Positions 19,958 through 64,000 of a stretch of 64,000 nucleotides of DNA are shown here, piece after piece (position 1 is the first letter of the stretch; each line of letters begins with the position of its first letter). The notes under the pieces were generated by a model. That model was not told the origin of the DNA, made no database searches, and saw only the letters and a list, made by a program, of their open reading frames with translations. This DNA comes from Patiria pectinifera. Lineage: Eukaryota; Echinodermata; Asteroidea; Valvatida; Asterinidae. The DNA lies in assembly GCA_029964075.1 (NCBI GenBank), contig CM057133.1, positions 12,300,699 to 12,364,698 of the forward strand. The letters run 5' to 3'. The position numbers were made by a program, and so were the translations under genes.

Positions 19958-20932
19958 ATGGGGTTGAATGACTCGTCAGCAGATCAGCCTTCTCTCCCAC
20001 TACCATTAGCGCTTCGAGTGAGTGCATCGACACTTTGCGCAGTCCTCTCTCTCGTCTACCTGTGGGTCATCTTCTCTGTCGCTTTCTTTCGCCAACTCAG
20101 AAATCCCTCCAATTACTTTCTGGTCAGTTTATTTGTCAATGAGTTTTGTCTTACCTTGTTGTTGGCATCATCCTTCAGCACAAATGATATGACTACTCCC
20201 CAAAATGCAGCACTTATGTTGTTTGAATTAGGACTATCGTGCTCTTTTTTACTTGGCTTTATCTTGAATTCCACCGTCATTGCTGCCGACAGATATTTCA
20301 AAATAGCAAAGCCCATGAAGTATATGCGCCTCATGACTACTAAAGTATGGTCCTGCATTATTCTGCTCACATGGGTAGTTTCTTTAATTTCTGGCATCGG
20401 GACGTATTTTAGTAACTTTGGCAGCGTTGAGGGCAAGCTCATTTCAGCATTAGATGTTTTCAACAACCAGTACTACATGAAACTGGCAGTTATAGTGTTT
20501 GATATTTTGGCAGTGCCGTGCTTACTTGCAATGGCAATACTGGTAACTCAACTGGTGGTCATTGCCAGATACCAACAGCGTAAAATAGAAGCCGAGAGAA
20601 TTAACTTAGGACACATTGCCACCAACGACCCCACAAATGACAATAATCAGGTAGCACGACCCCGCCACGTGCGTACATCCAAATCCATCTGGTACTTATG
20701 TGCCTACTTTACGACTATCATCATGGCATGGCTGCCCCCCGTGATGATATCTAACTTAATAACGTTCAAACTTGTAAACATTCAGTTTGATCAGGCAAGT
20801 TACATTGCCCTCGCCGTAGCAACGCTACAAATGCTCTTTGGGGCCCTTTTTCTAACGTACGTACAGAAAGACCACAGATTGGTCCTGCGTAATGCTTACA
20901 AAGCAATCCTTAACCTGTGCGAGCGTCAATAA
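19958..20932 (+). CDS. Intronless olfactory-receptor-like class A GPCR
   Basis: A 324-residue single-exon receptor starting MGLNDSSADQ (sequon NDS). After TM1 comes LRNPSNYFLVSL, which resembles the olfactory-receptor LHxPMYxFLxxL segment. ADRYFKIAKPMKY follows TM3, ARYQQRKIEAERINLG begins loop 3, AWLPP is in TM6 and TM7 ends GALFLTYVQKDHR instead of NPxxY. It is the closest relative of the gene at 17262. It lies tail-to-tail with the coiled-coil gene 3.8 kb downstream. The 3' part from 20674 onward is repeated in inverted form at the far end of the window (63742-64000), so this locus marks the outer part of the inverted repeat. Confidence 0.87.
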   Translation: MGLNDSSADQPSLPLPLALRVSASTLCAVLSLVYLWVIFSVAFFRQLRNPSNYFLVSLFVNEFCLTLLLASSFSTNDMTTPQNAALMLFELGLSCSFLLGFILNSTVIAADRYFKIAKPMKYMRLMTTKVWSCIILLTWVVSLISGIGTYFSNFGSVEGKLISALDVFNNQYYMKLAVIVFDILAVPCLLAMAILVTQLVVIARYQQRKIEAERINLGHIATNDPTNDNNQVARPRHVRTSKSIWYLCAYFTTIIMAWLPPVMISNLITFKLVNIQFDQASYIALAVATLQMLFGALFLTYVQKDHRLVLRNAYKAILNLCERQ

Positions 20933-22074
20933 ATTGCAGATTCGGTTAAGGTAGAGTTGGTTCGCAATTGGGAGATCAGTGAATGGGTGCGAGTGTTGAC
21001 ATGACGCACAAGCGTGCAACCAAGTGTGTATTTGCCTGCAATCGGAGACCCCCTATTGTTCCTCTGTTGTTTGTACGTTTAACTTTTTAGGAATACCTCC
21101 CATATGTTTTGTACACGAATCCAAATTGGGGACCTCTCGGGAATTGGGGACCCTATTGTCCCCTATTGTTCAACGTCCCCTATTGAATGCAGAAACAAAC
21201 TCATGCGGCTCCTATTATTCGTCGGTTTAGTGTGTGACATCACATAGCTACAACTGGCTGAATGACATTCATGTCCTGAATCACACATGCGCCTCTGGCA
21301 GCAGTTAAAGTCACTTCCCACAAACACTTGCTAGCCACAGCCACTACTGCTGTACTGCTAGCCACAGCCACAATACAATTAATATGGATGCAACCTGCTC
21401 TGCCCTTTAAAGGCTTTCATTGACGAGTCGGCCATATTAAATTGAAAGCGAGGTAAAATGTTCATTTTTTTTGGAACTTGCGACTAAAAATTAAAGCAAT
21501 GACATAAAGTTAATTACAATTTAATACCAGTCTGCTTGGATGAATAATTTAAAATTTGTGATCATACCCCAATGTTTAAGCCACATTTAAAAAAAATACT
21601 GAAATTGAATGTATAAATAGTCTGGCACCATCCCATTCAACAGTTTACAATTTATAAAATACGTTCAGGGAACACGATCAAAAATGGCTCCCTGGTGAAT
21701 AAGGTCTATTTTAATTTGTTTTTGCCGTAGTGGTTATCAATTAATTTTGTTTTTACTTACCTTGGGCTTGGTTGGCGCTAGTCAATATTCTGCTGTCCTC
21801 CACTTTCTCGGCAATTTTCTGTCTCAAGAGCGGCGCTACCTGCTGCAGAAGGAGGTAGCTAGCAATATCTGGGCAAAGTGATTATTAAGGTGGAAAAAAA
21901 AAAATTCCTGTCCAGAATTTAATGTGACGTTCCTTGCATGAAAAACGGGTTAAAGTCAATTTTCGGATTGAATTGAAAATGGAGATTACAGGGATGTGCT
22001 CTTATTATGTTCAAAATTATCCCTCCACCCAATTTTTTTTTTTTTTTAAATTGAAGTATACAATTAAAGGAATG

Positions 22075-22375
22075 ATTATACCAGCGACTGTGCCAAAAAC
22101 CAGAACTCGTACCGGTGATAAAACGTTTCAAGCCCCTGGACCAGGTCTTTGGAAATGTCTGCCCAACCAACATCAGGGAGGCCAAAACCTTGAACATTTT
22201 CAAAGGTCTTCTAAAAGCACCTGTTGTCAAATTTCTTGTATATCTTTGTATTTCGCTTTGATGTTCTGTTTAGTGAGTGTCATTGTTCATTGTGTAATTT
22301 ATAATATATATTGCCTCGTACTGCGCTGTGTTCCTTGAAAAGCGCTTTATAAATGCCAAATTGTATTGAATTGTA
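22075..22375 (+). mobile_element. 3' end relic of a CR1/L2/RTE-type LINE
   Basis: A short open stretch encodes TGDKTFQAPGPGLWKCLP, matching the C-terminal tail of many non-LTR reverse transcriptases (pattern RLWNxLPxxIR...LxxFKxxLK). It is followed by a 3' tail with AAAGCGCTTTATAAATG and an ATTGTATTGAATTGTA end, typical of LINE/SINE 3' tails in marine animals. Only the last few hundred bases remain. The mirror copy is at about 62,325-62,640. Confidence 0.65.
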
Positions 22376-23351
22376 TCACTAAAAGACATCAAAGCGATGG
22401 TACAACAATTTTATTATATTAGAGACCATTACACATTTGATATTAAAATGAAAAATCTATTCTACTTTGGAAAGAAAACTCTAAGGTGGGATTGGTTTTA
22501 TTATCTGATGTTTATGTACATGTATACTTCTTATTATGCTGCTGTTGTGCACTAAAATGAATTATTATTAAAATGAAAGATCTGTGTCCTGATTAAACAT
22601 ATTTCATATTTACCTACTTTGTATTTAATGCTTATGCAAAGAAAATATTTTGAACTGTTTGATCAATTGTTAGCATAAAATTTGTGTAAATTTCTTTTTG
22701 AAATCTTATAAAAGAGAATGGTGACTTCTTAGTTTAAAATGATGTTTAAGGTAGAGTGAACCATTTGCAGCTATCCAAAATGTAACCGACCAAATTATTG
22801 TTAAAAATCTTACTTGGTTTAAAGATATTAATGACACTTTATTCCCTGTGAAATTATTTCTTCTGGCATGCTGTCATTTTGAAGAGAACAGTTAAAGAAG
22901 GATATTTCTAAAGGTGTGTCAAGTGACACGTTTTTGGAAATTTCCGTTGGTAGTTGGTTTGTAATTGGGCGAATCCATGAATGGGTGCAAGCGTTGACAC
23001 GACGCACACGCGCATGCGGTTGTTATTATTATTAGCGATAATCGTCGGTTAAGTGTGTGACATCACGGCTGAATGAGAATCATGGCCCGAATGCTGATTT
23101 CAGGATTGCGTCATGATGAGAGGATGCAATTCAAAATATAACTCAGCAAATTTTGAATTGAAATTGACTGAGATCCAGAATATTGTGTTTTCTTAAAATA
23201 TACAGCATTCACAGTGCTAAAACTTCATCAGGTCAATTGTTAAGCATCTGTGTTTAGATTTTGAGCACTTTTGTTGCTTCAAACGAAAAAAAAATGCACA
23301 AATGACAAATGGTCTATCCTGCCTTTAAAACAAAAGATCTACATTCATATT

Positions 23352-23667
23352 CAAGGGCGGATCGAGGGGGGGGGGGCCAAAGGGGGCCATGGCCCCCCCA
23401 AAAACGAAACCAATTTTTTTTTTATGTGACGTCGCAATAAAGGCAGGCAATGAGTACACCACCATCTTTTCCTCAAAAAACATTGGTTAAAGTGGTCAGA
23501 AATTGCCTCAGATCGCACCACAGAGCATCTAGAATCCAAAAAATTTTTTCGGGGCCCTTAAGCGGGCCCCGAACCCCACGCCGTAATTTTTGGACCCACT
23601 TTTTGGGGGGACCAAAAATGTTTTTTGGCCCCCCCCCCCAAAAAATTGTGTTCTGGATCCGCCCTTG
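23352..23667. mobile_element. Non-autonomous hAT-like transposon, present only in the left arm
   Basis: A 316-bp element with perfect 12-bp terminal inverted repeats CAAGGGCGGATC / GATCCGCCCTTG and an 8-bp target duplication TTCATATT at 23344-23351 and 23668-23675. Long G- and C-runs lie just inside both ends. The right arm has a single, slightly changed target and no element, which is a clean empty site. The 8-bp duplication and GGCGGATCC-type ends fit the hAT superfamily; no transposase is encoded. Confidence 0.85.
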
Positions 23668-24772
23668 TTCATATTCAGATCATATTTGTTTTTTTGATCA
23701 CTTGTACTGCATGTAGTTTATGTAAATACTTTTGAAATGCTTGGTGACTTGTAATGGTAAACTGACATCAAAATGAAAGATGTATATTTCATTTTCAAAT
23801 GTTTCTTGTGTTTCCAACTTTTGCAATTAGATTTTTCTGAACTGCACTAAATCTCACCACTTTTTTTATCAGTTTTATTACATGTAGGTTGCGTAAATAC
23901 TTGTTAAAAGTTGTAAAATAATTGGTGAATGTTCGCATGTGTGACTTTTGCTAGATTGTGAGATTATTCTCTTTTACATGTGTACATTGTAAGCAAAATG
24001 CGCATAGGGCAGGTTTTGTTCTTTAATGCTAGCTGCAAGAATGAATACATTAAAAAAAAAACAAGTACATTTTTTAAATAGTATAAATGTTGATTTCATT
24101 AATGTTCAAATTTGAATTGATAAAAATCTGTTTTGTTAGTATGTACTGACATATCGGTTAATCTGTAAAAAAATGTTGTTTTGTGAAAAATAAACTGAAT
24201 AAGTGCCAAGTTGTTATTTGACTGTTAAAATATATTTTTCCGGATTCCAGAGCAATTTTCTTTAGTGGTAGTTAATAGTTTGAGCTACAGGTACCGGTAC
24301 CAACAAGTTGGAATACCAATAATATTGATGTCCTGCTGTATGCTAAATGTAATAAAATAGTATTCACCAATTAAAATATAACAACATGAGAACTGGTGTT
24401 TTTTTTGCCAATTTCTGACTGTAATTTTGAAAAACAAAAAACACGCCAAAATCTGCATTGTTACAGTCTAGTGTACAAAACCCAACTCTGCCGTTACATA
24501 TTTGAGTGAGGATGCCAGCAGTATGGTCCCTAGGATGGATTCGAATCGCTGATCCCTATTGTGTATATACTGACTGGATACAGCACTATGTCATTCACAA
24601 AGAAGTGAAGCTGCCAAGAGTCACTTTTTTGGCCTCCCAATATGGCCGCTGCTATAGTCAGCCCTTACAGTGTTGTGCTCTATCTCAAAGTACTGTAAAA
24701 TTTGTATATATTTTAGGCCTCTCAAGATGGTGGTCTAGTAACTTCAACCGGTGATCTTGATGCACTGTCCCG

Positions 24773-27700
24773 TCAGTACATAGAGATCGGCGAGTGAAAA
24801 CTCGCCATGCAAGCCCCTACTACATTAGCAAGGATACGAGACAGACGCATGACGGCTACTTTAGGACCCTCACTACAGTGGGCTTGGGCCTCGGCAAACA
24901 GGCGATGCCGTAGTTTCTCGTTAGCGAGGGGTGACATGGCATCCACGGCCTCGCCGAATTCCTTCTCGCTCATCAGGCCTAGCTCCTTGCCGGGCCTTTG
25001 TAACAACTTGCTCTCAATCTAAAAAAAAAAAGAGAGTGTCCGTGTCAAAAATTTGTTTAAGGTTTTGTAAATTCTGAATGGCCTAGTGAGCCTTTAGCTT
25101 CACGGCCTGAAGTGCAACGCTGTAGCCGGGGCTGCAGTTAAGCCCATCACAAAGTCAAATCACAGATCAAATCACAAGGAGGTCACAAGTAAACTGGACA
25201 TGAATAATGACGAAGGAATGCCTTTGCTTGCAGTTCGTATGATAGCTTGCGACTTAGCTAGAAACCGAGTGACTTCCGATTGATTTACGACTGGATGACT
25301 TTAAACATTGAGGGGCTGTGGTCCAATGGTTACAGTGTTCGACTTGTGTGCTGTGGTACATGGGTTTGAATCCTGACGGGGAACATGGTCCTTGTAGTCT
25401 TGAGCAAGGCACTTTACTATTATTGCTTCGTCCTTCGGATGGGACGTAAAGCCGTAGGTTGTAATGCACATTTAAGAACCCAGTAACACTTATTGCTAAG
25501 AGAAGGGATTTGCCCCCGTGTTTCTGGCAGTGGCTGCAATATGCGCCGCAGCACCTTGTATACCCTTTATAAGGGTGCTACACATTGGGTCTCATATTTC
25601 TCATAAACTTCATTTACCTGTTTTTAAAATGGACTGGCGCCTTGAGTACCTAATTGTTGGAAGATACGTGCGCTATAAGACTTTGGTATTGTTATTATTA
25701 TTACTTGTATTCAGACTTGTTACGTGTCGTGAGACTGGGTGATTTGGATTGACCTGTGACACCTTGAACACAACTGTTTCACAGACGAATACAGTCACGT
25801 GATCTCTGTACACTCACAAGGCCCCCTTCAATGGAGGAACCATTGTGCTAGCTATTGTACAAAGCAACTTCCCCGTGACGGATTATCTGAACAATAGCTA
25901 GCACAATGCATTCGCCATTGAAGGGGGCCACCGTGACGGCGGTGACAGCAAGCCTGAATTGGTCTACAGGACACAGTTACACAATCTATTGAATTTGACA
26001 AAACAAAATTCAAACATACTTCTTGAAATCTTGGTTCTCGGTACTTGAGAATGATGTACATCAAGTATTCGTACACTAAGGCCTTGGAGACTTTGTTCTC
26101 ACTGAAGGACGTGTAGCCGAGATGCAGCTGGTCTATGTCATCCTCCTGGTTACCACGGAAAGCAAGAAAGAAAGGGTGGAGTTTTGAGAATGACGGCAGA
26201 CAAACACAATTTGATAATCTGAATATATGGTTCCAATTCTCATGACTTTGGACGAGGGGCGGCTCGTGCCATGCTTTCAATGGGGAGCGCTGATAAAATC
26301 CTTCAATCAGGCACACTGTATTAACTAAAAGTGTACAAATGCACCCTTCTCACGACTATTTATTTAGGAGGAAACCATTCGCATGTACGTCACATTCTTA
26401 AATTTGCTAGTGCAATTTCTTTTTATGGAATTTTTTTTTTGGGGTAGACAAAATTTGGGGGGGGGGCTAAAGCCCCCCCAACCCCCCGTAGAACCACCAC
26501 TGAGTATACATGTATGTTTGTACATCTAAGGGGAATTTTTAGAGAAATAATAATGCCTTAAAGATGAGGCTGAGTTGTCTTACATTTAAGAATGGATAGA
26601 TGGCAGTGGCGAACGCCTTGAAGTCCTCTACGTACTGCCAGTCCACTCTGTCGATCAAATCACAAACAACCAGCAGATATCGGAAGACTGCAGCATCCAA
26701 GTTACCGACGAGAATCTGAGCAAAGATCTGAATTGCCTGCAAAGAAGAATGGATGAAATTCATTTAATCGATACAGCAATCAGCACGTCAATTATAACTA
26801 CGGCCATGCGTAATTGGCGTTGAACAATGGCAGTTTTATAGTCTAGCGCTGTCCTGAATATAGCGAATATTTCGAATAATTGATCATCAACTGAATATTC
26901 AAATACCTTTTTGCCGGTTTGAATATTTGAAAACGAAAAAAACTACGCACATACACACACAACTGTGATGCTATTTTATCATAAGGTTGCAGCACTTTAT
27001 TGTCAGGTGCCCACTTTTTTGTCAACGGCGCTTCAGTGTTCACAGTACAAATGGGTTGTGAAAAAAAAAATGGATACAAAGATCAAAAGCTTACTTTGTT
27101 GACAACAGAGTACTCCATGAGTGCAGTGATGAAATCGTGGGCACACAGATACATCACATCTGGTAGAATGTAACGATCAGCCATGTAATTGTAGAAACCA
27201 GTCTGAGAAAAAAAAAGTCGAGAAAATTAAAAGAAAGCGCTATTTAAAATATGTATTCCAACAACTAGAAACACTGCAGGATGACAGACCAATACAAAAG
27301 AGTCAACATTTCTGTTAGTGAAATACTGAGAATTTGCCAAAAATATAACTTATTGAATGCATTCATCTCGACATATGTGGCATATCAGACTAAGTTTAAA
27401 AAAAAACATTTTTGACATAAGAATATTTCCTAAGTTTATTTGATCAAAACTTAAGTTACTGAAGAAACTCTCTTCTAGTAACCATGGCAACTCACCAGGA
27501 CACCAACTATTGGCTCGTCTTCCAAAGCGTGTTCGTCTTGCCACAAGGCATGGCCATAGAACTGGCCAATGATGGAGAGTGTCCTTTTCTGTTTTGAGGA
27601 GAACAAATCCAAAGTAAAAAGATTTATGTTTTATAAAAAAATTGCATTTATATAACGTACAGTATCCTAACATATGAATGCAACATGACATTTGTCAGCG

Positions 27701-30700
27701 ATAAAGAGCTGTTGTATTTTCAACATCAATTGTTCATTTTTTTTTCATTTTTCCTGAGCAAAGGTAATCCACTCGGTGGTCAGTCTTGGTAATTAAAAAA
27801 ACAAAACCAGTAGTCTTTGGGCCTTTGAAGTTTGTATTTTTTAGGCAACTATTCTGATACCATATGCCCAACAATTAGATGATATATCACAAGTCAATAG
27901 TAAAAATATTGGCCTGGTCAGTAGTAATCGTTTCAAAGTATTCCATGATCAACTGCTGTAACATTTTCCACTGGTTAATATTTTGTAACTATCTTTACAT
28001 TTAATATATGCATGTTGTGCCGGTCATAACAATCAATAATGTCTGGCATCCTTACCATGTCCAGTGGTTTGGGGATAGACCTTGTTAGACTGGTTCTCTC
28101 CTTGTAGTCATCCCACAGTGGCATAAAAGTGCTCATCTGAGAAAAGTAGTAAATTACATGTCATCAAAATCACAAAATCTCTTACAAAATTACAGGCTAC
28201 TTGCAACGGCACGTCCAGGTTTTGGATCGGGGGAGGGGGGGGGGTAATTTTTCTGAAAAGAAGTTACAATAATTTGTTAATTTTATTTTTTTAATGAGTT
28301 TTTGTCTGACCTGTTGGTCCTGAGAATGTTGCGCTTTTTCCATCCGCGTCGCGGAGGTGGGGGCGCTGTCAGCAACGCCTGGGGTGACGGAATCCCCATG
28401 GAATATATGCTGCTCGTTGTCCTTCTCCAATACAGAGTACCGGCTACGGATGCGTTTACCGGCCGGATCGCTGGCTGGCAGGTCGCCCGACTCGGACAAG
28501 GTGGAGGATAACTTTAAAGTTGGTGGTGGGTGCGGTTGGAGTGCTCTGTTAAAACAAGAGACGTTCAAATAATTTTTTTCTAGAATCGCAAGCAGGAATT
28601 GTTGTGTTTGTTGTTATTAGTTTGAGATAAATAGGAAAATTCATAGATATTACAGGTTAGAAAGAATTTTCAAATTTAGATTATACATATGTAATATTCA
28701 TAAACTCATATAACCCTTTCCAGAGAAAAGAAACCATACAAAAGGCATAATGCAATTTCCTTCGTACAGGACTTTTTTTGTTAAAAGTAAAAAATCTTTG
28801 TACTAAAAAGTACACAAATGATACTCAAATATCGTAGACAAAATGGTTAATTGTGATATTCATTATGAAGAATACGAGTGATATGAAGAATAGACTTGCT
28901 TCAAGTCAAGTCTCTGCTACTTTCATGAGAAAGTAGCAGAGTCCAGATCCTGAAGTTTGGTGGCCAAAGTGGCAAATGTAGCTTTTATCTCAAAATGACT
29001 CAGAAATCACTGATATGGACAGTTATATCAGTGAGGCGAGCCCAATATTAAAAATTTACAAAACACCAACACACTAATTTTTCATGACAAGAACAGCTTA
29101 CGTTTGTTCATCAAGAAAAAGCGACAACTTGGTCTTCAGACTTGTGAAGTCTAATGTTAACCCACTGGCGTGGACAGGAAAATATCATGATCAGCCGCGT
29201 CGATGAAAACATCATTTCATTAGCACGTGCGTTTTCATCGGTTGCTATGTGTTACCATTCAGCATTCCGGACTCACGAACCATCGAGTTTCAAGAAAATG
29301 GATCTGGACACTAGATAAGCTGTGTAAAATATCTCAGCATGTCCGTGCCCGCCTATACTGGCATTATATTCCCTGAATAAAATTGCTGACCTTTTTTTCA
29401 CGGCAAATTTCTTGGGATGACATACCTTTTGTTAGTCCTCTCCATGGGAATGCGTACCCCTGGGCGCGACAGCTTGATGTGACTGCAGTTATGTGGAAGC
29501 ATGATTATCTTCTCCCCGCTGACTTTGTGTGGACATAAAACTGTCTGATGAATAGACAAATACATAAACTAATGATGTTAAAGATCATTAAAAAAAACAC
29601 TAAGGCTGTGATGTTATTACATTTATAGCTCCACATTTTTGTCAATATAGTAAAGTCTGTCGTGAGTCAATGTGACCCATCAGGCCGGCGCTTATCTCCG
29701 GTTTCAGTAGCATTAAACGACTGAGAATATTTCTATTCCCCCTGCATGGGATGCCAGTCCATCGCAGGTTACTCCCCAGCTAATGCCGGTACCCATTTAT
29801 GCTCCTGGGTAAAGAGAGGCAAGTGGAGGTGAAGTGGCTTGCCCAAGGACACAACATATGACCAGCAGCTGGATTCGAACCCCTGACCCTCTGATCATGA
29901 GTCACGAACCCTAACCACTAGGCCACACTCCCCCAAAGGTCAATATATTGATCTTATTTTTGTCAATATTGATTAATTATTGTAATTTTATTACAAAGAA
30001 ATATTTGAAAATTTATGAAAAAGATGAGAAAAAAAAGAAGAAAAGTAATATGTATTAGGAAGAAATAGCTCTCTCTTCTTTGTTGTTGTCTCCAAGTTGT
30101 AATATTGCCCCCCTCCCCCCTCAAAAAAATTTCCTTTCCCCCCAATTGCCCCCCAAATTTTAGAGTCTGGCGCCGCCACCGACAGCAGCACCAGCAGCTG
30201 GTGTACCTTTTCCCCGCAGCTGGTGCAGAACTTGGCGTCTTTCAGCTCATGCCAGGTCTTCTTCTGGTTGGTGGTGGTGTAGATCATGACGCTGTACTTG
30301 CTCAGGATGGACTCCTGGGGCACGAAGGGATCCATCTCGCTGCTCAGGAGGTCCACGTTCTCAAAGTTGTCGGCCACTGAGAGCGCAGACTCTGATCACA
30401 GAATGAAAACACGAATGTGTTGACTGAACACAAATGCTAGTCTATGAAGTGTCCTCTTGCTCACGGAAAGGACAGAAAGAGTCGATATGCGAGGAGATTA
30501 GGCGAATAATTATGCAAAACAAGCCTACGTCTTGACCTCGAGAAAATTATTTTTATTTTTCAGCTAACCATGCTACTTGTACAGCAGTGCCATGAGATTT
30601 GTTCAGCACCTGCTAAGCAGAAAATATTGCTTAGCATGAATCAGATGAGAACCAGTCCTAAACAACATTGATAATTGGATGATGTTTTGGTTAGTAACCT

Positions 30701-37691: not shown

Positions 37692-37852
37692 TGTAGTAAC
37701 TTGTTCATCACTAAAAGTGTTATAGCGCCCTCTGTAGTTTGCCATTGAAAGCCTGTAACTGTGTGTTCCAATATGGCTGCCCACTGAGAAAGTCACGTAG
37801 AAATAAACAGTGATTGCAACTCCCAATTTAGTGTGTTTGCCTGGTTATAACA
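37692..37852 (+). repeat. 5' LTR of the gypsy element
   Basis: Starts TGTAGTAACTTG and ends GGTTATAACA. It matches the 3' LTR over its full 161 bp by eye and contains AATAAA near the end. Confidence 0.95.
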
Positions 37853-37869
37853 ATTGGCGACGAGGTAAA

Positions 37870-47280: not shown

Positions 47281-47780
47281 NNNNNNNNNNNNNNNNNNNN
47301 NNNNNNNNNNNNNNNNNNNNNNNNNNNNNNNNNNNNNNNNNNNNNNNNNNNNNNNNNNNNNNNNNNNNNNNNNNNNNNNNNNNNNNNNNNNNNNNNNNNN
47401 NNNNNNNNNNNNNNNNNNNNNNNNNNNNNNNNNNNNNNNNNNNNNNNNNNNNNNNNNNNNNNNNNNNNNNNNNNNNNNNNNNNNNNNNNNNNNNNNNNNN
47501 NNNNNNNNNNNNNNNNNNNNNNNNNNNNNNNNNNNNNNNNNNNNNNNNNNNNNNNNNNNNNNNNNNNNNNNNNNNNNNNNNNNNNNNNNNNNNNNNNNNN
47601 NNNNNNNNNNNNNNNNNNNNNNNNNNNNNNNNNNNNNNNNNNNNNNNNNNNNNNNNNNNNNNNNNNNNNNNNNNNNNNNNNNNNNNNNNNNNNNNNNNNN
47701 NNNNNNNNNNNNNNNNNNNNNNNNNNNNNNNNNNNNNNNNNNNNNNNNNNNNNNNNNNNNNNNNNNNNNNNNNNNNNNNN
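47281..47780. other. Assembly gap of exactly 500 N
   Basis: A run of 500 undetermined bases. The round length suggests a placeholder for unknown distance, as used by scaffolders. The left side ends inside a class C GPCR exon; the right side starts inside the GTCGA minisatellite. Confidence 0.98.
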
Positions 47781-47888
47781 GTTGTCCCGAGTCGAGTTGT
47801 CTCAAGGGTCGACTTGTCTCAACGGTCGAGTTGTCTCAATGGTCGACTTGTCCCAAGTCGAGTTGTCTCAACGGTCGACTTGTCTGAC
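47781..47888. repeat. GTCGA minisatellite at the inner end of the right arm
   Basis: Repeats such as GTTGTCTCAACGGTCGACTT, the inverse of the array at 36,697-36,802. The contig starts inside it. Confidence 0.8.
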
Positions 47889-48170
47889 ATTCCTAAAGTA
47901 AAAACACATTTTGCCTAATTTTTTTTTACATCAACACTGCTTCCTGGATTCCTCTTGGGTGAAATCACAAGGTGAGGTGAAAATTAATGTGTTTAGCGGC
48001 AGGTAAAGTTGTGTCCCAGTATGGAATTTTTCCCGGCCCTAATCATGCTAATGTGTCTTGCCTAACAATATGCCTAAGACACAAGCGCCATGTTCCCTGT
48101 CTGGATTAATTCGAACCCATGTACCATGGCACATGGCGCATAAATTAGAAGCTTGATGCCTTTTTTTCAG

Positions 48171-51100: not shown

Positions 51101-54100
51101 GTCTCTGTTCAGCCACACTTACATGCTACGACCATATTAGGATTATTAATTTTTTTGAGAGAGAGATAGTCGAACATCACAAGGCCCTGAAGGGCCATTC
51201 AAGGGAGGCTACACAAAGAAGGGAAAGAAAAGGAAATCTAAAAGTACTTCAAGTAGAAAGATAAGTTTTGATGTTATGCTTGAAATGGGGCCGATCAAAA
51301 TCAATTGGAAAAAAATGCCTTGGAAATGTCAGCAAAAGCATCTTGTGTTCTTTTTCCATGGAAACAGCGATAAATCTGAAGTTTGACAACCTTATCACAA
51401 ATCAATGTTCATTTTTGGGGCGTTTTTTTTTTTAAGACTCAACGATGATTTGGAAGAGCTGACAGAAGACACAGACAGAGAGAGAAAGAACTTGGAGTTT
51501 CAGAAACGCAAACTGCAAGAAAGAGTGACGGCTCTTGAGAAAGAGACGGAATTCTTGAGCCAGTACAAGAGTGGTTACGATGCCCTTCAAGAAGGTAAGG
51601 CCCAAAAAAAATGTGTCCAGGTGATGTTTCAATTCAACACTCCAAATTTCTAAACTTCAAGATGCTTTCTTTTTAGTGGAAGGCTCCAATTACACGACAG
51701 CAATAACCAAAAAGACAATTTTTTGGGAAGAAAGGCTCAATGATTCTGAAGAATTAACTTGAAGAGTTGCATGGTGGGCTTTGAACTGAACACGATTTTT
51801 GCCGATTGGTTACAGGGAACTGGAATGTTAGGTTGACTGATATATTTAATTATCTTCTTTCTTTTTTTTTGGACAGCCTTCAATGTCAAGATTGAAGAGG
51901 ACAAGTACACGTCCAGGAAATCCAGAAGATCAGTCTTAGCTAACAAAAAGGTCAGAGAGCAAATGATGAAGGGTCAGATTCTATAGAGGAGGGAATTTCA
52001 GACTGACAAGGGAATGACAAGAAGGGGTTAGTGTCTTTCTGAAGGTGCCTCGATTCCAATGCCATTTTGCTAGGAACCATGGTCAATCCTCCGAAATCCT
52101 CAAAAATTGTGCACTTATGTTCAAATGAAGGATACCCAGCGCCTCAATCCTTCAAAATTGTCAGACAGTCCAGCCTCTCAAAATGCATTCATCCTAAATC
52201 CTCACAAATCCTCCTCTTCTTCAAACACCAGTCATCCTCAATCCTCCAAAATCCTCATGTGCTAAAACCCCATTCATCCTCAATCCTCAAAACTCCTCCT
52301 GTTTCTCAAACACCATTCATCCTCAATCCTCTGTTGGTTCTTATATCACTCTGGTTTGTAACATTGCAATCGACAGAACCACCTGCTCACCAACTTCGAT
52401 GCTGCCAAGAAGCTTGAGAAGCAGCTCCTGGAGGTGCAGAACCAGACCATCGAGGAGTTTGAGTCTTTCTTGGAGGCGCACAAGTCAGAGCTTCAGCACA
52501 AGGTTCTGCGGGATACCGCCGATGGGGGCTTGCTGGATAGAGAGTATGACGAAGAGGAGATGGAGCTCGAAAGGTTGGATACAGAGGTATGTGCTGTGTG
52601 AAAATATTGACCGCCTGGGAGGGCAGTAGTGCAGACATATTGTACGATGATGCTATGTGCCTCATGCTCGTAGTGCTTAAAATCTCCTGTTATGGAGATC
52701 GGCGTGGGCGCGGGACTCGTACTGCGCAGCAGTGCAGGAATAAAGTGTTTAACACCAGCCAGTGTTTTATCAGCGGGGTTTAAAACCACCAACGTGACAG
52801 GCTCTCGACCAATAGGAATGGGTAAAAGTGTATTTATGAATATAGAACAAAGACAGGTTCATTTACCCCTATAACTCCCAAGCTTTCCGAGGTACAGTGC
52901 GTCAGAGGTACATGCGACACGTGGCCTGATCTTGAAGCATCCACAAAGGCAGGCTCACAACGGATCGTGTTCATTGATGAACCACTTGGTCAAGATCAGA
53001 GTGATTGGCACAGGTGTTGTGAGTACACCTCTACTATCCCAAAGTAAGGTCCTTGTGCAGGTGGAATCAAATTATTGACACGGTTTTAATATTTTTGTGA
53101 ATGACTAGTTGAGCACTGCGCAAGACCACTTCCAGCAGACCATCACCGCACTAAACACCGAGCTGGACATGATCCGACAGCACAAGGACGCCATCCAGCA
53201 GCAGACCCAGCAGCAGGCGGAGAAGCCCCGGGCCCACGAGGCCAAGACGCCAAGCCGGTCCCGCAGCGTGGCCTTCAAGGAGCCCAGCCCTGCAGGAGGG
53301 AGCTCCTTGGAAGGAGGGTATCGGTACGGGAGAGATGAGAAGGTCCCCAGCGTGAACGGAAAAGGTAGGAATGACCAGCGGCCGGTGTAATTGAACAAAA
53401 AATCTGCTGAGCGTGGAAATTATTTGCTTACCAAAAACAGGTTACCAACCAAAGCATCATCCAATTATAAATGTTGTTTAGGACTGGTTCTCATCTGATT
53501 CATGCTTAGCAATATTTTCTGCTTAGCAGGTGCTGAACTAATCTCATGGTACTGCTTTACAGTTAGCATGGTTAGCAGAAAAATAAAAATAATTTTCTCG
53601 AGGTCAAGACGTTGGCTTGTTTTGTACAATTATTCACCAAATCTCCTCGCATATCATAGACTCTTTCTGTCCTTTCCGTGCAAGAGGACACTTCATAGAC
53701 TCGCATTTGTGTTCAGTCAACACATTCGTGTTTTCATTCTGTGATCAGAGTCTGCGCTCTCAGTGGCCGACAACTTTGAGAACGTGGACCTCCTGAGCAG
53801 CGAGATGGATCCCTTCGTGCCCCAGGAGTCCATCCTGAGCAAGTACAGCGTCATGATCTACACCACCACCAACCAGAAGAAGACCTGGCATGAGCTGAAA
53901 GACGCCAAGTTCTGCACCAGCTGCGGGGAAAAGGTACACCAGCTGCTGGTGCTGCTGTCGGTGGTGGCGCTAGACTCTAAAATTTGGGGGGCAATTGGGG
54001 GGAAAGGAAATTTTTTTGAGGGGGGAGGGGGCAATATTACAACTTGGAGACAACAACAAAGAGGAGAGAGCTATTTCTTCCTAATATGTATTACTTTTCT

Positions 54101-57100
54101 TCTTTTTTTTCATCTTTTTCATAATTTTTCAAATTTTTCTTTGTAATAAAATTACAATAATTAATCAATATTGACAAAAATAAAATCAATATATTGACCT
54201 TTGGGGGAGTGTGGCCTAGTGGTTAGGGTTCGTGACTCATGATCAGAGGGTCCGGGGTTCGAATCCAGCTGCTGGTCATATGCTGTGTCCTTGGGCAAGC
54301 CACTTCACCTCCACTTGCCTCGCTCCACCCAGGAGCATAAATGGGTACCGGCATTAGCTTGGAAGTAACCTGCGATGGACTAGCATCCCATCCAGGGGGA
54401 ATAGAAATATTCTCAGTCGTTTCATGCTACTGAAACTGGAGATAAACGCCGGCCTGATGAGCCACATTGGCTCGCGACAGACTTTACTATATTGACAAAA
54501 ATGTGGAGCTATAAGTGTAATAACATCACAGCCTTTTAATGATCTTTAACATCTTTAGTTTATGTATTTGTCTATTCATCAGACAGTTTTATGTCCACAC
54601 AAAGTCAGCGGGGAGAAGATAATCATGCTTCCACATAACTGCAGTCACATCAAGCTGTCGCGCCCAGGGGTCCGCATTCCCATGGAGAGGACTAACAAAA
54701 GGTATGTCATCCCAAGAAATTTGCTGTGAAAAAAAGGGTCAGCAATTTTATTCAGGGCATGTAATGCCTGTATAGGCGGGCGCGGACATGCTGAGATATT
54801 TTACACAGCTTATCTAGTGTCCAGATCCATTTTCTTGAATCTCGATAGTTCGTGAGTCCGGAATGCTGCATGGTAACACACAGCAACCGATGAAAACGCA
54901 CGTGCTAATGAAAAGATGTTTTCATCGGCGTGGCTGATCATGACGTATTCCCGCCCACGCCTGTAGGTTAAAAGTAAACTTCGCAAGTCTGAAGACAAAT
55001 TTATTGTGTTTTGTTTTTGAACAAAAGGTGTTCTTTTCATAAAAAAAATTAGTATACCGGTGTTTTGTGAATTTCAATATTGGGTTCGCCTCACTGATAT
55101 AACTCTCCATATCAGTGATTTCTGAGACATTTTGAGATAAAAGCTACATTTGCCGCTTTGGCCACCAAACTTCAGGATCTGGACTCTACTACTTTCTCAT
55201 GATTAACAGACTTGAAGCAAGTCTATTCTTCATATCACTCATATTCTTCATCTATACCACAATTAACCATTTTGTCAAGGCTATTTGAGTATCATTTGTG
55301 TACTTTTTAGTACAAAGATTTTTTACTTTTAACAAAAAAAGTCTTTTCGAAAGAAATTGCATTATGCCTTTTGTATGGTTTCTTTTCTCTGAAAGAGTTA
55401 TATGAGTTTATGAATATTACATATGCATAATCTAAATTTGAAAATTCTTTCTAACCTGTAATATCTATGACTTTTCCTATTATCTCAAACTAATAACAAC
55501 AAACACAACGATTCCTGCTTGCAATTCTTGAAAAAAAATAATTTGAACGTCTCTTGTTTTAACAGAGCACTCCAACCACACCCACCGCCAACTTTAAAGT
55601 TATCCTCCACCCTGTCCGAGTCGGGCGACTTGCCAGCCAGCGACCCGACCGGTAAACGCATCCGTAGCCGGTACTCTGTATTGGAGAAGGACAACGAGCA
55701 GCATATATTCCATGGGGATTCTGTCACCCCCGGCATTGCTGATAGCGCCCCCACCTCCGCGACGCGGATGGAGAAAGCGCAACATTCTCAGGACCAACAG
55801 GTCAGACAAAAACTCAAACAAAAATTAAAATGAACAAAAATTTGTGGCCTCTTTTCAGAAAAATTACTCCCCCCCCCCATCCAAAACCTGGATATGCCAC
55901 TGCACGTAGCCTGTAATTTTTTAAAAAGATTTTGTGACTTTGATGATATGTAATTTCCTACTTTTCTCAGATGAGCACTTTTATGCCACTGTGGGATGAC
56001 TACAAGGAGAGAACCAGTCTAACAAGGTCTATCCCCAAACCACTGGACATGGTAAGGACGCCAGACATTATTGATTGTTGACCGGCACAACATGCAGTAG
56101 TATTTGTATTAAGTGAAAAGATACTAACCAAATATTGACCAGTGGAAAATGTAACAGAAGTTGATCATGGAATACTTTGAAACGATGACTACTGACTGGG
56201 CCAATATTTTTACTATTGACTTGTGATATATCATCTAATTGTTGGGCATATGGTATCAGAATGGTTGCCCAAAAAAATACAAACTTCAAAGGCCTAAAGA
56301 CTACTGTTTTCTTTTTAAATTACCGAGACTGACCACCGAGTGGATTATCTTAGCTCCGAAAAAATGAAGAAAAAAAATGCACAGTTGATGTTGAAAATAT
56401 AACGGCTCTTTATCGCTGACCGTGTCATGTTGCATTCATATGTTAGGTTACTGTATGTTGTATAAATGCAATTTTTTTATAAAACATAAATCTTTTACTT
56501 TGGATTTGTTCTCCTCAAAACAGAAAAGGACACTCTCTATCATTGGCCAGTTCTATGGCCATGCCTTGTGGCAAGACGAACACGCTTTGGAAGACGAGCC
56601 AATAGTTGGTGTCCTGGTGAGTTGCCATGGTTACTAGAAGAGAGTTTCTTCAGTAACTTAAGTTTTGATCAAATGAACTTCGGAAATATTCTTACGTCAA
56701 AAATATGCCACAAATGTCGAGACGATTGCATTCAGTAAGTTTTATTTTTTGGCAAACTCTCAATATTTCCCCAACAGAACTGTTGACTCTTTTGTATTGG
56801 TCTTTTGTATCTTGCATTGTTTCTAGTTGTTGGAACACATATTTTAAATAGCGCTTTCTTTTAATTTTCTCGACTTTTTTGTTCTCAGACTGGTTTCTAC
56901 AATTACATGGCTGATCGTTACATTCTACCAGATGTGATGTATCTGTGTGCCCACGATTTCATCACTGCACTCATGGAGTACTCTGTTGTCAACAAAGTAA
57001 GCTTTTGATCTTTGTATCCAATTTTTTTTCTTCACAAACCATTTGTACTTCTTGATGCTGATCTGTTAAGTTCATTTGTTCCTATAAATTTTTTTGTTTT

Positions 57101-60100
57101 TGTACTCGAACTCGTACTCGCACTGATAAGAAAAAACTTGTGCTCATCCTCGCTAGAAAAAAATACCTGTACTCGTACTGGTAGCCATACTCGTGGCAAA
57201 GTACTCATACTCTTACTCATGAGTATGTTCTCCTGCGGGAATTTTAGCTTTTTTTCAAGGTACACTCGGGGAAAGAACTCTTTTTGATTTTTACTTTTGG
57301 TGGGCTTTTGCATATTTTTAATGCCAGTCTGACAGCAATAATCCTTGAAAACATGTACCAATCAAATTGGACTTGTACTCATTGAAATGTACTTAGGTCA
57401 AAAAAAAATAATTCTGCTTCCGGTTTCCCTACCTACCCTATTCTGACAGCCCCTACCCAATTTTTTTATGGGAAAAATGAGGAAAAAAAATCCCCAAATC
57501 CATCAATTTCTACCTTTTACCCATGACTACACGCAGACGCCTCCATATGATCGTACACAAAAAAAAGTGGCCAAAAAAAAAAATTCCTAGCTACCTACCC
57601 TATTTTCGAATGCCATTTAATCGGAAGCAGAACTATTTCTTTTTTGGCCTTAGCTATAATAGGGCTGTCCATTTTCAAATAATTTAGTATTCGTTTACTC
57701 AAAACTGCATTTGACCGAATATTCAGATAATCGAAACTGCCAGCTGCAACTGCGTGCTTCGCCGGTAAAAAGTTGCATGAAGAGCACGCCAGTTAAAATT
57801 TGCATGCAGCAATCCATATAAGACGCTGGAGTTTTTGGCAGCAAGTATTTTATGACTGCACAGGGCTTTCACCCGCTTAAAGGATGTGAACAGTGAAGCG
57901 CCGTTGACAAAAAAGTGGGCACCTGACAATAAAGTGCTGCAGCTTTATGATAAAATAACATCATAGTCATGTGTGTATGTGCGTAGTTTTTTTCGTTTTC
58001 AAATATTCAAACTGGCAAAAAGGTATTCGAATATTCAGTTGATGATCAATTATTTGAATATTAGCTATATTCAGGACAGCGCTAGACTATAAAACTGCCA
58101 TTGTTCAACGCCTATTACGCATGGCCGTAGTTATACTTGACGTGCTGATTGCTGTATCGATTAAATGAATTTCATCCATTCTTCTTTGCAGGCAATTCAG
58201 ATCTTTGCTCAGATTCTCGTTGGTAACTTGGATGCTGCAGTCTTCCGATATCTGCTGGTTGTTTGTGATCTGATCGACAGAGTGGACTGGCAGTACGTAG
58301 AGGACTTCAAGGCGTTCGCCACTGCCATCTATCCATTCTTAAATGTAAGACGACTCGGCCTTGTCTTTAAGGCATTGTTATTTCTCTAAAAATTCCCCTT
58401 AGATGTACAAACATACATGTATACTCAGTGGTTGTTCTACGGGGGGCTAGGGGGGGGCTTTAGCCCCCCAAAATTTTGTCTAGCCCCCCCCCCCAAAAAA
58501 AAATTTCCATAAAAAAAAATTGCACTAGCAAATTTAAGAATGTGACGTACATGTATGCGAACGGTCTCCCCCTAAATAAATAATTGTGAAAAGGGTGCAT
58601 TTGAACACTTTTAGTTAATGTAGTGTGTCTGATTGAAGGATTTTATCAGCGCTCCCCATTGAAAGTATGGCACGAGCCGCCCCTCGTCCAAAGTCATGAG
58701 AATTGGAACCACAAATTCAGATTATCAAACTCTGTTTGTCTGCCGTCATTCTCCAATCTTCACCCTTTCTTTCTTGGTTTCCGTGGTAACCAGGAGGATG
58801 ACATAGACCAGCTGCATCTTGGCTACACGTCCTTCAGTGAGAACAAAGTCTCCAAGGCCTTAGTGTACGAATACTTGATGTACATCATTCTCAAGTACCG
58901 AGAACCAAGATTTCAAGAAGTATGTTTGAATTTTGTTTTGTCAAATTCAATAGATTGTGTAACTGTGTCCTATAGACCAATTCAGGCTTGCTGTCACGGA
59001 GGCCCCCCTCCATGGCGAATGCATTGTGCTTGCTATTGTTCAGATTATCCGTCACGGGGGAGTTGCTTTGTACAATAGCTAGCACAATGGTTCCTCCATT
59101 GAAGGGGGCCTTGTGAGTGTACAGAGATCACGTGACTGTAATCGTCCGTGAAACAATTGTGTTCAAGTTGTCGCAGGTCAATCCAAATCAGCTAGTCTCA
59201 CGACACATAACAAGTCTGAATACAAGAAATAATAATAATAATACCGGAGTCTTATTTAGTGCACATATCTACCAACAATTAGGTACTCAATTCACTGGTA
59301 ATTATGTCTATTTTAAAGACAGGTAAATGAAGTTTATGAGAAATATAAGACCCAATGTGTAGCACCTTTATAAAGGGTATACTGCTAGAAATACACACTG
59401 CCAGAAACACCGGGGCAAACCCCTTTTCTTAGCGATAAGTGTTACTGGGTTCTTTAACATGCATTACACTACACACGGGACCTACGGCTTTGTGTCCTAT
59501 CCAAAGGACAAAGCAATAATGGTAAAGTGCCTTGCTCAAGAGCACAAGGACCATGTTCCCTGTGTACCACGGCACACGAGTCGAACACTGTAACCATTGG
59601 ACCACAGCCCCTCAATGTTTAAAGTCATCCAGTCGTAAATCAATCGGAAGTCACTCGGTTTCTAGCTAAGTCGCAAGCTATCATACGAACTGCAAGCAAA
59701 GGCATTCCTTCGTCATTATTCATGTCCAGTTTACTTGTGACCTCCTTGTGATTTGATCGGTGATTCGACTTGTGATTTGACTTTGTGATGGACTTGACTG
59801 CAGCCCTGGCTACAGCGTTGCACTTGAGGCCGTGAAGCTAAAGGCTCACTAGGCCATTCGGAATTTACAAAACCTTATAACAAATTTGTGACATGGACAA
59901 CAAGTTATCTCCCTTTTTTTGTGTTAGATTGAGAGCAAGTTGTTACAACGGCCCGGCAAGGAGCTAGGCCTGATGAGCGAGAAGGAATTCGGTGAGGCCG
60001 TGGATGCCATGTCACCCCTCGCTAACGAGAAACTACGGCATCGCCTGTTTGCCGAGGCCCAGGCCCACTGTAGTGAGGGTCCTAAAGTAGCCGTCATGCG

Positions 60101-60173
60101 TCTGTCTCGTATCCTTGCTAATGTAGTAGGGGCTTGCATGGCGAGTTTTCACTCGCCGATCTCTATGTACTGA
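48171..60173 (+). CDS. Coiled-coil protein gene, second copy, exons 2-17 (exon 1 absent)
   Basis: Exons: 48171-48329, 49686-49839, 50766-50951, 51437-51594, 51877-51950, 52377-52586, 53109-53364, 53749-53933, 54583-54701, 55566-55800, 55971-56051, 56524-56616, 56889-56996, 58192-58344, 58794-58919, 59928-60173. Each has the same length as its partner in the left copy, with GT-AG borders and an open frame. Exon 1 (start codon, 16 codons) would lie across the N gap. Substitutions are few and mild, for example LADK to LVDK and VESQTTR to VESQTAR in exon 4, RAPE to RAHE in exon 8, and PAGK to PTGK and GVAD to GIAD in exon 11. This looks like an allele or a very recent, constrained duplicate, not a decaying copy. 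Confidence 0.85.
48381..48635. mobile_element. Non-autonomous hAT-like MITE, present only in the right arm
   Basis: A 255-bp element with perfect 21-bp inverted ends (outermost GGTAATCCTTAC..., 48381-48401 against 48615-48635), flanked by the 8-bp direct repeat CAAAAAAC at 48373-48380 and 48636-48643. The corresponding left-arm site (about 36,195-36,215) has only an A/T run. The 8-bp duplication fits hAT; the A-rich target weakens that a little. Confidence 0.75.
50152..50441 (-). mobile_element. tRNA-derived SINE (mirror of 33,758-34,012)
   Basis: On the minus strand it starts GGGGCACTGTGGTCCAATGG and ends AAGCGCTTTGAGACCCGTGG then TATATAAGC. It is longer than the left copy because it keeps a GGTAATGAGAGG segment in the body. 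Confidence 0.8.
52090..52335. repeat. ~43-bp minisatellite (about three units), mirror of 31,799-32,130
   Basis: CATTCATCCTCAATCCTC recurs near 52,267 and 52,311, with a CAGTCATCC variant near 52,228. Confidence 0.7.
54203..54480 (+). mobile_element. tRNA-derived SINE (mirror of 29,668-29,934)
   Basis: Starts GGGGGAGTGTGGCCTAGTGG, B box GGTTCGAATCC, then CTTGGGCAAGCCACTTCACC. It sits in the intron between exons 9 and 10. Confidence 0.8.
57042..57888. mobile_element. ~845-bp insertion specific to the right arm, with a nested MITE
   Basis: The flanks join directly in the left arm near 27,045. The insert has imperfect TACTCG/ACTCGT repeats at about 57,100-57,230. A nested element at about 57,395-57,655 has imperfect ~28-bp inverted ends whose cores are TTCTGCTTCCG (57412-57422) and CGGAAGCAGAA (57622-57632). 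No reading frame of note. Confidence 0.6.
58430..58513. mobile_element. Poly-G/poly-C fragment (mirror of 26,436-26,512)
   Basis: CAGTGGTTGTTCTACGGGG followed by G-runs, GCTTTAGCCCCCC and further C-runs. It is present in both arms, so it predates their divergence. Confidence 0.4.
59001..59110. mobile_element. Fold-back MITE (mirror of 25,820-25,929)
   Basis: GGCCCCCCTCCATGG at the start pairs with CCATTGAAGGGGGCC at the end, with internal GCATTGTGCT..CTATTGT against ACAATAGCTAGCACAATG. 110 bp as in the left arm, with SNPs in one stem. Confidence 0.75.
59227..59611 (-). mobile_element. tRNA-derived SINE (mirror of 25,312-25,705)
   Basis: On the minus strand it begins GGGGCTGTGGTCCAATGGTT and ends in a TTATTATTATTATT tail. 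The B-box region is partly deleted compared with the left copy. Confidence 0.75.
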
Positions 60174-63100
60174 CGGGACAGTGCATCAAGATCACCGGTT
60201 GAAGTTACTAGACCACCATCTTGAGAGGCCTAAAATATATACAAATTTTACAGTACTTTGAGATAGAGCACAACACTGTAAGGGCTGACTATAGCAGCGG
60301 CCATATTGGGAGGCCAAAAAAGTGACTCTTGGCAGCTTCACTTCTTTGTGAATGACGTAGTGCTGTATCCAGTCAGTGTATACACAATAGGGATCAGTGA
60401 TTCGAATCCATCCTAGGGACCATAGTGCTGGCATCCTCACTCAAAGATGCTATGTCACGGTAGAGTTGGGTTTTGTACACTAGACTGTAACAATGCAGAT
60501 TTTGGCGTATTTTTTGTTTTTGAAAATTACAGTCAGAAATTGGCAAAAAACACCAGTTCTCATGTCGTTATATTTTAATTGGTGAACACTATTTCATTAC
60601 ATTTAGCATACAGCAGGACATCAATATAATTGGTATTCCAATTTGTTGGTACCTGTAGCTCAAACTATTAACTGCCACTAAAGAAAATGGCTCTGGAATC
60701 CGGAAAAATATTTATTTTAACAGTCAAATAACAACTTGGCACTTATTCAGCTTATTTTTCACAAAACAACATTTTTTTGACAGATCAACCGATATGTCAG
60801 TACATATTAACAAACAAATTTTTATCAATTCACATTTGAATATCAACAAAATCAACATTTACACTATTTAAAAAAAAATTGATTTGTTTATCTTTGATTG
60901 TATTCATTCTTGCAGCTAGCATTAAAGAACAAAACCAGCCCTCTGCTCATTTTGCTTACAATGTACACATGTAAAAGAGAATAATCTCACAATTTAGCAA
61001 AAGTCACACATGCGAACATTCACCAATTATTTTACAACTTTTAACAAGTATTTACGCAACCTTCGTGTAATAAAACTGATTAAAAAAGTGGTGAGATTTC
61101 GTGCAGTTCAGAAAAATCTAATTGCAAAAGTTGGAAACACAAGAACATTTGAACATGAAATATACATCTTTCATTTTGATGTCAGTTTACCATTACAAGC
61201 CACCAAGCATTTCAAAAGTATTTACATAAACTACATGCAGTGCAACCGATCGAAAAAGCAAATACGATCTGAATATAAATGTAGATCTGTTGTTTTAAAG
61301 GTAGAATGGACCATTTGTCATTTGTGCATTTTTTTTTCGTTTGAAGCAACAAAAGTGCTCAAAATCTAAACACGGATGCTGATTAATTGACCTGATGAAG
61401 TTTTAGCACTCTGAATGCTGGATATTTTGAGAAAACACAATATTCTGGATCTCAGTCAATTTCAATTCAAAATTTGCTGAGTTATATTTTGAATTGCACC
61501 CTCTCATCATGACACAATCCTGAAATCAGCATTCGGGACATGATTCTCATTCAGCCGTGATGTCACACACTTAACCGACGATTATCGCTAATAATAATAG
61601 CAACCGCATGCGTGTGTGTGTCGTGTCAACGCTTGCACCCATTCATGGATTCGCCCAATTACAAACCAACTACCAACGAAAATTTCCAAAAATGTGTCAC
61701 TTGACACACCTTTGGAAATATCCTTCTTTAACTGTTCTCTTCAAAATGACAGCATGCTAGAAGAAATAATTTCACAGGGAATAAAGTGTCCTTAATATCT
61801 TTAAACCAAGTAAGATTTTTAACAATAATTTGGTCGGTTACATTTTGGATAGCTGCAAATGGTTCACTCTACCTTAAACATCATTTTAATCTAAGAAGTC
61901 ACCATTCTCTTTTTTAAGTTTTCAAAAAGAGTTTACACAGACTGTATGCTAACAATTGATAAAACAGTTAAAAATGTTTTCTTTGCATAAGCATTAAATA
62001 CAAAGTAGGTAAATATGAAATATGTTTAATCAGGACACAGATCTTTCATTTTAATATCTATTTATTATAGTACACATATATTAGCATTATAGGCATAAAA
62101 GAAGTAAATTTTATCTCATCCGCCATGCAATGCTTCAAGTCATATATACATATAAGAAGTATATATAAATATCAGGTAATAAAACCAATGACAATTTAGA
62201 GGTTTCTTTCCAAAGTAGAATGGATTTTTCATTTTAAAATCAGATGTATAATGGTCTCAAAAATAATAATATTGTTGTACCACCGTTTTGATGTCTTTCA
62301 GTGATGAAAAAACAACAATACAATTAGGTATTTATAAAGCGCCTCTCATGGAACACAGTGCTGTACAAGGCAATATGTATAATAAAATACACAATGAAAA
62401 TTGAACTCAATAAACAGAACATCGGCAACAAAACGATAACACAAAGCAATCAAGAAATTAGACAAACAGGTGTGTTTTAGAAGACCTTTGAAAATGCCCA
62501 AGGTTTTGGCCTCCCTGATGTTGAAGGGCAGACATTTCCAAAGGCCTAGTCCAGTGGCTTGAAACGTTTTATCACCGGTATGAGTTTGGTTTTTGGCACA
62601 GTCGCTGGTATAATCATTCCTTTAATTGTATACTTCAATTTTTAAATTAATTTTTTTGGGGGGGAGGGGTTGAGGGATGTTTTTCAACATAGTAAAAGCA
62701 CATCCCTGTAATCTCCATTTTCAATTTAATCAGAAAATTGACTTAAACCCGTTTTTCATGCAAGGAACGTCACTTTAAATTCTGGACAGGAATCTGTTTT
62801 TCCACCTTAATAATCACTTTGCCCAGATATTGCTAGCTATCTCCTTCTGCAGCAGGTAGCGCCGCTCTTGAGACAGAAAATTGCCGAGAAAGTGGAGGAC
62901 AGCAGAATATTGACCAGCGCCAACCAAGCCCAGAGTAAGTAAAAACAAAATTATTTGATAACCCCTACGGCAAAAACAAATTATAATAGACCTTATTCAC
63001 CAGGGAGCCATTTTTGATCGTGTTCCCTGAACGTATTTTATAAATTGTAAACTGTTGAATGGGATGGTGCCAGACTATTTATACATTCAATTCCAGTATT

Positions 63101-63741
63101 TTTTTAAATGTGGCTTAAACATTGGGGTATGATCACAAATTTTAAATTATTCATCCGAGCAGACTGGTATTAAATTGTAATTAACTTTATGTCATTGCTT
63201 TAATTTTTAGTCGCAAGTTTCAAAAAAATGAACATTTTGCCTCGCTTTCAATTTAATATGGCCGACTCGTCAATGAAAGCCTTTAAGGGGCAGAGCAGGT
63301 TGCATCCATATAAATTGTATTGTGGCTGTGGCTAGCAGTGCACAAGTGTTTAATGTGAAGTGGCTTTACCTGCTGTCACAGGCGCATGTGTGATTCAGGA
63401 CATGAATGTCATTCAGCCAATTGTAGCTATGTGATGTCACACACTAAACCGACGAATAATAGGAGCCGCATGAGTTTGTTTCTGCATTCAATAGGGGACG
63501 TTGAACAATAGGGGACAATAGGGTCCCCAATTCCCGAGAGGTCCCCAATTTGGATTCGTGTACAAAACATATGGGAGGTATTCCTAAAAAGTTAAACGTA
63601 CAAACAACAGAGGAACAATAGGGGGTCCCCGATTGCAGGCAAATACACACTTGGTTGCACGCTTGTGCGTCATGTCAACACTCGCACCCATTCACTGATC
63701 TCCCAATTGCGAACCAACTCTACCTTAACCGAATCTGCAAT
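60174..63741. other. Repeat-rich intergenic region, mirror of 20,933-24,772
   Basis: Same order as the left arm in reverse, without the hAT element of 23,352. Extra AT-rich sequence lies at about 62,060-62,190. No gene is recognised. The 119-codon open frame at 61,010-61,369 has no counterpart in the left arm. Confidence 0.6.
62325..62640 (-). mobile_element. LINE 3' end relic (mirror of 22,075-22,375)
   Basis: On the minus strand it encodes a better-kept RT C-terminal segment (GLGLWKCLP, then IREAKTLGIFKGLLK) and ends GGCGCTTTATAAATACC. It is less decayed than the left copy. Confidence 0.65.
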
Positions 63742-64000
63742 TTATTGACGCTTGCACAGGTTAAGGATTGCTTTGTAAGCATTACGCAGGACCAATCTGT
63801 GGTCTTTCTGTACGTACGTTAGAAAAAGGGCCCCAAAGAGCATTTGTAGCGTTGCTACGGCGAGGGAAATGTAACTTGCCTGATCAAACTGAATGTTTAC
63901 AAGTTTGAACGTTATTAAGTTAGATATCATCACAGGGGGCAGCCATGCCATGATGATAGTCGTAAAGTAGGCACATAAGTACCAGATGGATTTGGATGTA
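63742..64000 (-). CDS. Olfactory-receptor-like class A GPCR, 3' part (window-truncated), second copy of the gene at 19,958
   Basis: The last 85 codons plus the stop of a receptor nearly identical to the one at 19958-20932: MAWLPPVMISNLITF in TM6, GALFLTYVQKDHR at the TM7 end, tail ending LCKRQ (LCERQ in the other copy). One further change is YIALA to YISLA. The gene continues past the window edge. Confidence 0.9.
   Translation of the reverse strand, partial: TSKSIWYLCAYFTTIIMAWLPPVMISNLITFKLVNIQFDQASYISLAVATLQMLFGALFLTYVQKDHRLVLRNAYKAILNLCKRQ

Follow-up and report, generated by a model that had tools for sequence, protein, structure and literature searches.

A 16-kb inverted repeat with one arm starting at a 500-N gap is probably an unmerged haplotig scaffolded backwards beside its allele

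The window studied here, a stretch of DNA of 64,000 nucleotides, contains two long segments that are reverse complements of each other (20,674-36,802 and 47,781-64,000). We consider that one of them is very probably an unmerged haplotig that was scaffolded beside its allele in inverted orientation. The inverted repeat would thus be an assembly artefact and not a real duplication, a reading to which we assign a probability of roughly 0.86. This interpretation had been advanced in an earlier note on the same DNA, and it stands as the best reading, short of proof, in view of the gap between the copies, the start of the right contig within intron 1 of a gene, and the lack of a breakpoint in view.

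The inverted relationship itself, which the earlier note had also described, was borne out by self-BLASTN of the window, which yielded four inverted matches (89.8-97.8% identity, E=0; Table 1). Global alignment of the arms with MAFFT in auto mode gave 93.6% identity over 14,930 aligned bases with 126 indels, and the localpair mode gave 92.4% identity over 15,119 aligned bases with 117 indel events, 62 of them of 1-2 bp; the unmasked differences are 6.4% and 7.6%, respectively. When 1,316 noisy columns of the localpair alignment were masked, the arms differed at 58 of 2,351 sites in modelled exons (2.5%) and at 692 of 11,840 sites outside them (5.8%). No indels were detected inside modelled exons in the localpair alignment. 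In the auto alignment, the inner region around 35,100-36,400 was badly scrambled (77-89% identity in its three 500-column windows), and the outermost 500 columns, up to the window edge, were 99.2% identical. Leaving aside private sequences and this kind of scrambling, which is confined to one stretch, the whole visible right contig is the reverse complement of the left arm. Because the repeat runs inwards to a contig start and outwards to the window edge, 16 kb is a lower bound for the length of the arms, and the right arm spans at least 16.2 kb.

Table 1. Features of the window, in order of position, with the inverted matches at the end (positions count from the first nucleotide of the window)
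Feature	Position	Strand	Remarks
Tandem GPCR copy	1951-2938	-	Divided over two frames
Tandem GPCR copy	5341-6331	-	Stops and frame breaks
Tandem GPCR copy	8785-9770	-	Stops and frame breaks
Tandem GPCR copy	12109-13104	-	Intact
Further GPCR gene	17,238-18,242		Assigned by tblastn similarity only
Rhodopsin-family GPCR	19949-20932	+	7tm_1 (Pfam); 3' end within left arm
Left arm	20674-36802	+	Interior of left contig; inverse homology to right arm (self-BLASTN, MAFFT)
Coiled-coil gene, exons 2 onward, left copy	21761-36412	-	15 modelled exons
MITE-like sequence	23354-23677	.	324 bp; left arm only
Minisatellite (17/32-bp unit)	36698-36804	.	Inner end of left arm, intron 1
Imperfect strong hairpin	36801-36857	.	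Left contig, intron 1, at the point matching the right-contig start, by the minisatellite
Coiled-coil gene, exon 1, probable coding part	37018-37066	-	Left contig only, outside arm; ATG and GTAAGT donor
LTR retrotransposon, Ty3/gypsy-like by domains	37692-42400	+	Left contig, outside arm
Class C GPCR	44537-47280	-	At least two pieces, 7tm_3 in both; end of left contig, cut by gap
Scaffold gap	47281-47780	.	Exactly 500 N; sole N run in window
Right arm	47781-64000	-	Opens the second contig; probably the other haplotype, homologous up to window edge
Minisatellite (17/32-bp unit), right copy	47782-47885	.	Opening sequence of right contig
Coiled-coil gene, same 15 exons, right copy	48171-62934	+	Lacks exon 1
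Private sequence	57049-57884	.	836 bp; confined to right arm; target-site repeat not evident
3' end of the same Rhodopsin-family GPCR	63742-64000	-	Right arm; cut by window edge
Inverted match 1	20674-23353 / 64000-61270		Self-BLASTN
Inverted match 2	23668-27044 / 61279-57885		Self-BLASTN
Inverted match 3	27044-35297 / 57049-48910		Self-BLASTN
Inverted match 4	36204-36802 / 48379-47781		Self-BLASTN; innermost 599 bp, 97.8% identical

The two copies lie on the same scaffold with a gap between them, and the right arm begins immediately after the 500 N, exactly as the earlier note had stated. Ko et al. 2022 (PMC9516828) include the separation of copies by a gap in their list of principal signs of false duplication. 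Spacers of 500 N between contigs have been described in assemblies scaffolded with 3D-DNA (PMC12879420, PMC10320752, PMC10421919), and another report mentions 500 Ns placed between unplaced contigs only (PMC9178229). Because a palindrome gapped in its right arm, or any contig cut within an arm, would yield the same coincidence, the start of the arm at the gap does not discriminate on its own and was set aside as evidence for a haplotig. As for breakpoints of duplication, none was found in the 64-kb window, where the repeat is bounded internally by the contig start and externally by the window edge. This observation fits a haplotig, which has no breakpoint; one could, however, be hidden by the gap or by the window edge. 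The 10.5 kb that separate the left arm from the gap match the right contig in a single 93-bp stretch (77% identity).

The main competitor of the haplotig interpretation is a genuine palindrome, a large inverted duplication whose arms span 16.2 kb or more and whose right arm contains or adjoins an assembly gap. Under this reading, which we regard as unlikely, the spacer would be made of the LTR element and the class C GPCR, and exon 1 of the right copy of the coiled-coil gene would lie inside the gap. Orientation and adjacency are those found in the assembly, and a gap in the right arm accounts equally well for the contig start and for the absent exon. On the other side, no breakpoint is in view (with the reservation made above), and an exact 500-N placeholder separates the copies, so that the assembled sequence is not continuous from the spacer into the right arm.

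The gene content of the arms provides additional evidence. All 15 modelled exons of the coiled-coil gene are of equal length in both arms, have intact AG/GT sites and contain zero stop codons. The equality of length previously noted was thus found in every modelled exon, although the count of sixteen given at the time was not reproduced. In turn, the statement that both gene copies are open holds for the modelled exons and must be qualified for the right copy, which lacks exon 1. Exon modelling did not find the 3' end of the gene. Coding changes between the copies amounted to 7.5 nonsynonymous and 49.5 synonymous (dN 0.0041, dS 0.106, dN/dS 0.039), an approximate ratio as the exon-picking script rewarded synonymous changes and probably biased dN/dS low and dS high. 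Judging from these substitutions, both copies look constrained. Concerning the protein, the first of two concatenated exon peptides gave six Pfam matches, none of them at the curated cut-off (the best was PF21037, E 0.0097, 16.3 bits against a cut-off of 27.1), and the second gave no Pfam match. A PDB search with the exon peptides gave 0 matches up to E 0.1. Outside the modelled chain, a segment that may well be an extra exon (29402-29568) is open in both arms, with 1 change in 167 bp. A minisatellite with a 42-43-bp unit adjoins a modelled exon in both arms, and has 5.5 copies in the left arm (31795-32025) and 3.4 in the right (52186-52331).

The probable coding part of exon 1 starts with ATG and comprises MDSDGGKMTVLDGYSP plus one split-codon base; its phase agrees with that of exon 2. 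BLASTN did not find a counterpart in 47781-64000, the best match of the region being 17 bp, and the right contig can therefore be said to begin within intron 1. The lack of the start exon in a contig where the other modelled exons of the gene are intact and constrained favours the haplotig interpretation. So does the place where the right contig starts, which corresponds to a strong hairpin by a minisatellite in the left contig. The fold of this hairpin (36790-36880) has a predicted energy of -23.8 kcal/mol (z -5.93), and 0 of 200 shuffles were as good. A tentative explanation is that the hairpin caused the right contig to end at this point.

The neighbourhood of the coiled-coil gene is rich in GPCR genes. 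As claimed in the earlier note, a GPCR 3' end is common to both arms: the shared portion is 259 bp long, shows 3 differences and reaches the stop codon in both arms. The class C GPCR that closes the left contig also has an NCD3G match, which is under its Pfam cut-off. At the beginning of the window, a tandem array (1-15069) is made of units of approximately 3.4 kb that are 79-96% identical and contain four related GPCR copies on the minus strand. Three of the four copies are broken by stops or frame breaks, and sequencing errors may account for part of the damage.

These genes bear on the palindrome in opposite ways. The first 13.1 kb hold four related GPCR copies arranged in tandem, a sign that local duplication has been active and a point in favour of the palindrome. 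However, neither arm shows damage or loss of constraint in the 15 modelled exons, while three of the four tandem GPCR copies are broken.

We also asked whether the divergence between the arms might tell alleles from paralogs. For comparison, four of the tandem pairs found on the same contig of the window were used, with coding sites kept in. These pairs showed a divergence of 3.0-6.8%, a variance/mean ratio of 2.8-3.2 per 100 sites and 0.125-0.19 indels per SNP. The two long arm segments yielded 4.5 and 6.0% divergence, variance/mean ratios of 3.1 and 3.3, and 0.15 and 0.14 indels per SNP. Because the arms and the tandem pairs are alike, the divergence pattern cannot separate alleles from paralogs, and the SNPs and indels invoked in the earlier note lose their value as a reason to propose a haplotig. 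For the same reason we discarded the clustering of mismatches as an indication of allelic mosaicism (the variance/mean ratio outside modelled exons was 3.1, compared with 2.8-3.2 in the tandem pairs) and the number of indels per SNP as a discriminator.

The amount of divergence may count against our preferred interpretation. Heterozygosity in amphioxus has been estimated at 3.2-4.2% (PMC12500494), a range that may not be that of the host, and both the 5.8% found outside modelled exons and the dS of 0.106 lie above it. The existence of equally diverged tandem paralogs may be read in the same way, and is an observation that a palindrome would readily accommodate. According to Ko et al. 2022, false duplications stem mainly from the more divergent haplotypes (PMC9516828). 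One would expect a haplotig left behind in an assembly to be of the more divergent kind.

Paralogs of similar divergence in the window also lend some plausibility to a different scenario, in which the right contig is a real duplicate from elsewhere in the genome that scaffolding misplaced here; a join across a scaffold gap need not be true. We view this scenario as quite improbable: homology spans the entire visible right contig, including the gene, its introns and the GPCR neighbour, with the exception of the private and scrambled parts. Finally, a library artefact in which one molecule was copied back on itself (by a missed hairpin adapter or an amplification chimera) would explain the inverted orientation and nothing else, and can be dismissed for practical purposes: the arms of such a molecule would be near-identical, while 6.4% of the aligned bases differ here, coding changes are mostly synonymous, and both arms have private sequences.

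Private sequences include the two largest single indels of the localpair alignment. The earlier note had spoken of clean TE indels between the arms. This description proved accurate for the 324-bp MITE-like sequence, whose terminal inverted repeats match almost perfectly and which has TGAATATGAA on each flank as a target-site repeat, but not for the 836-bp sequence, which shows none. Outside the arm, the LTR retrotransposon of the left contig has 161-bp LTRs that are 100% identical, and a 5-bp TAGCC repeat on both flanks. Its overlapping frames encode zinc-knuckle, protease, reverse transcriptase, RNase H and integrase zinc-binding domains. The insertion of this element is apparently recent.

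If the right contig is a haplotig, its history might be as follows. The arms would be the two allelic versions of a single locus, from a diploid animal of high heterozygosity. The assembler would have made separate contigs of both haplotypes, and the second would have been neither merged nor removed. Scaffolding based on Hi-C contacts may then have set the leftover haplotig beside its allele. The end of the haplotig that matches position 36,802 of the left contig is only about 10.5 kb away from the left-contig end (47,280), nearer than its other visible parts; hence, backwards placement after a 500-N spacer could have occurred because the nearest ends were joined. A difficulty is that 3D-DNA has an optional haplotype-merging step, and our interpretation needs this step to have missed the pair. 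Guan et al. 2020 state that, to their knowledge, heterozygous overlaps are not handled by Hi-C scaffolders such as SALSA (PMC7203741), a statement that does not name 3D-DNA. One amphioxus assembly, BraLan3 of B. lanceolatum, was built with Canu, purge_dups and 3D-DNA (PMC9673378), a combination that would be compatible with this history.

Left uncorrected, the join would create a spurious second copy of the coiled-coil gene and of one or more GPCRs, as well as a spurious inversion. Errors of this kind are relevant when recent gene duplicates and receptor expansions are counted in highly heterozygous animals. A different significance would attach to an old, real inverted duplication, 16 kb or more in length, whose coiled-coil gene and chemoreceptor-like GPCR had come to differ by about 6% between copies in the absence of homogenisation by gene conversion, with purifying selection acting on each copy. 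We consider that such a duplication is slightly less probable than a palindrome in general. The feature is most likely an ordinary assembly artefact that makes one gene seem two.

Palindromes of sex chromosomes and amplicons usually have arms that are near-identical through gene conversion. The structure described here resembles them in having long inverted arms, genes and a spacer, and differs in that the arms are about 6% apart and no breakpoint is in view. Another parallel is found in false heterotype (haplotypic) duplications, which likewise involve two diverged copies on one scaffold, a gap between them and a partly duplicated gene (PMC9516828; PMC7203741). The difference is that the second copy is inverted here.
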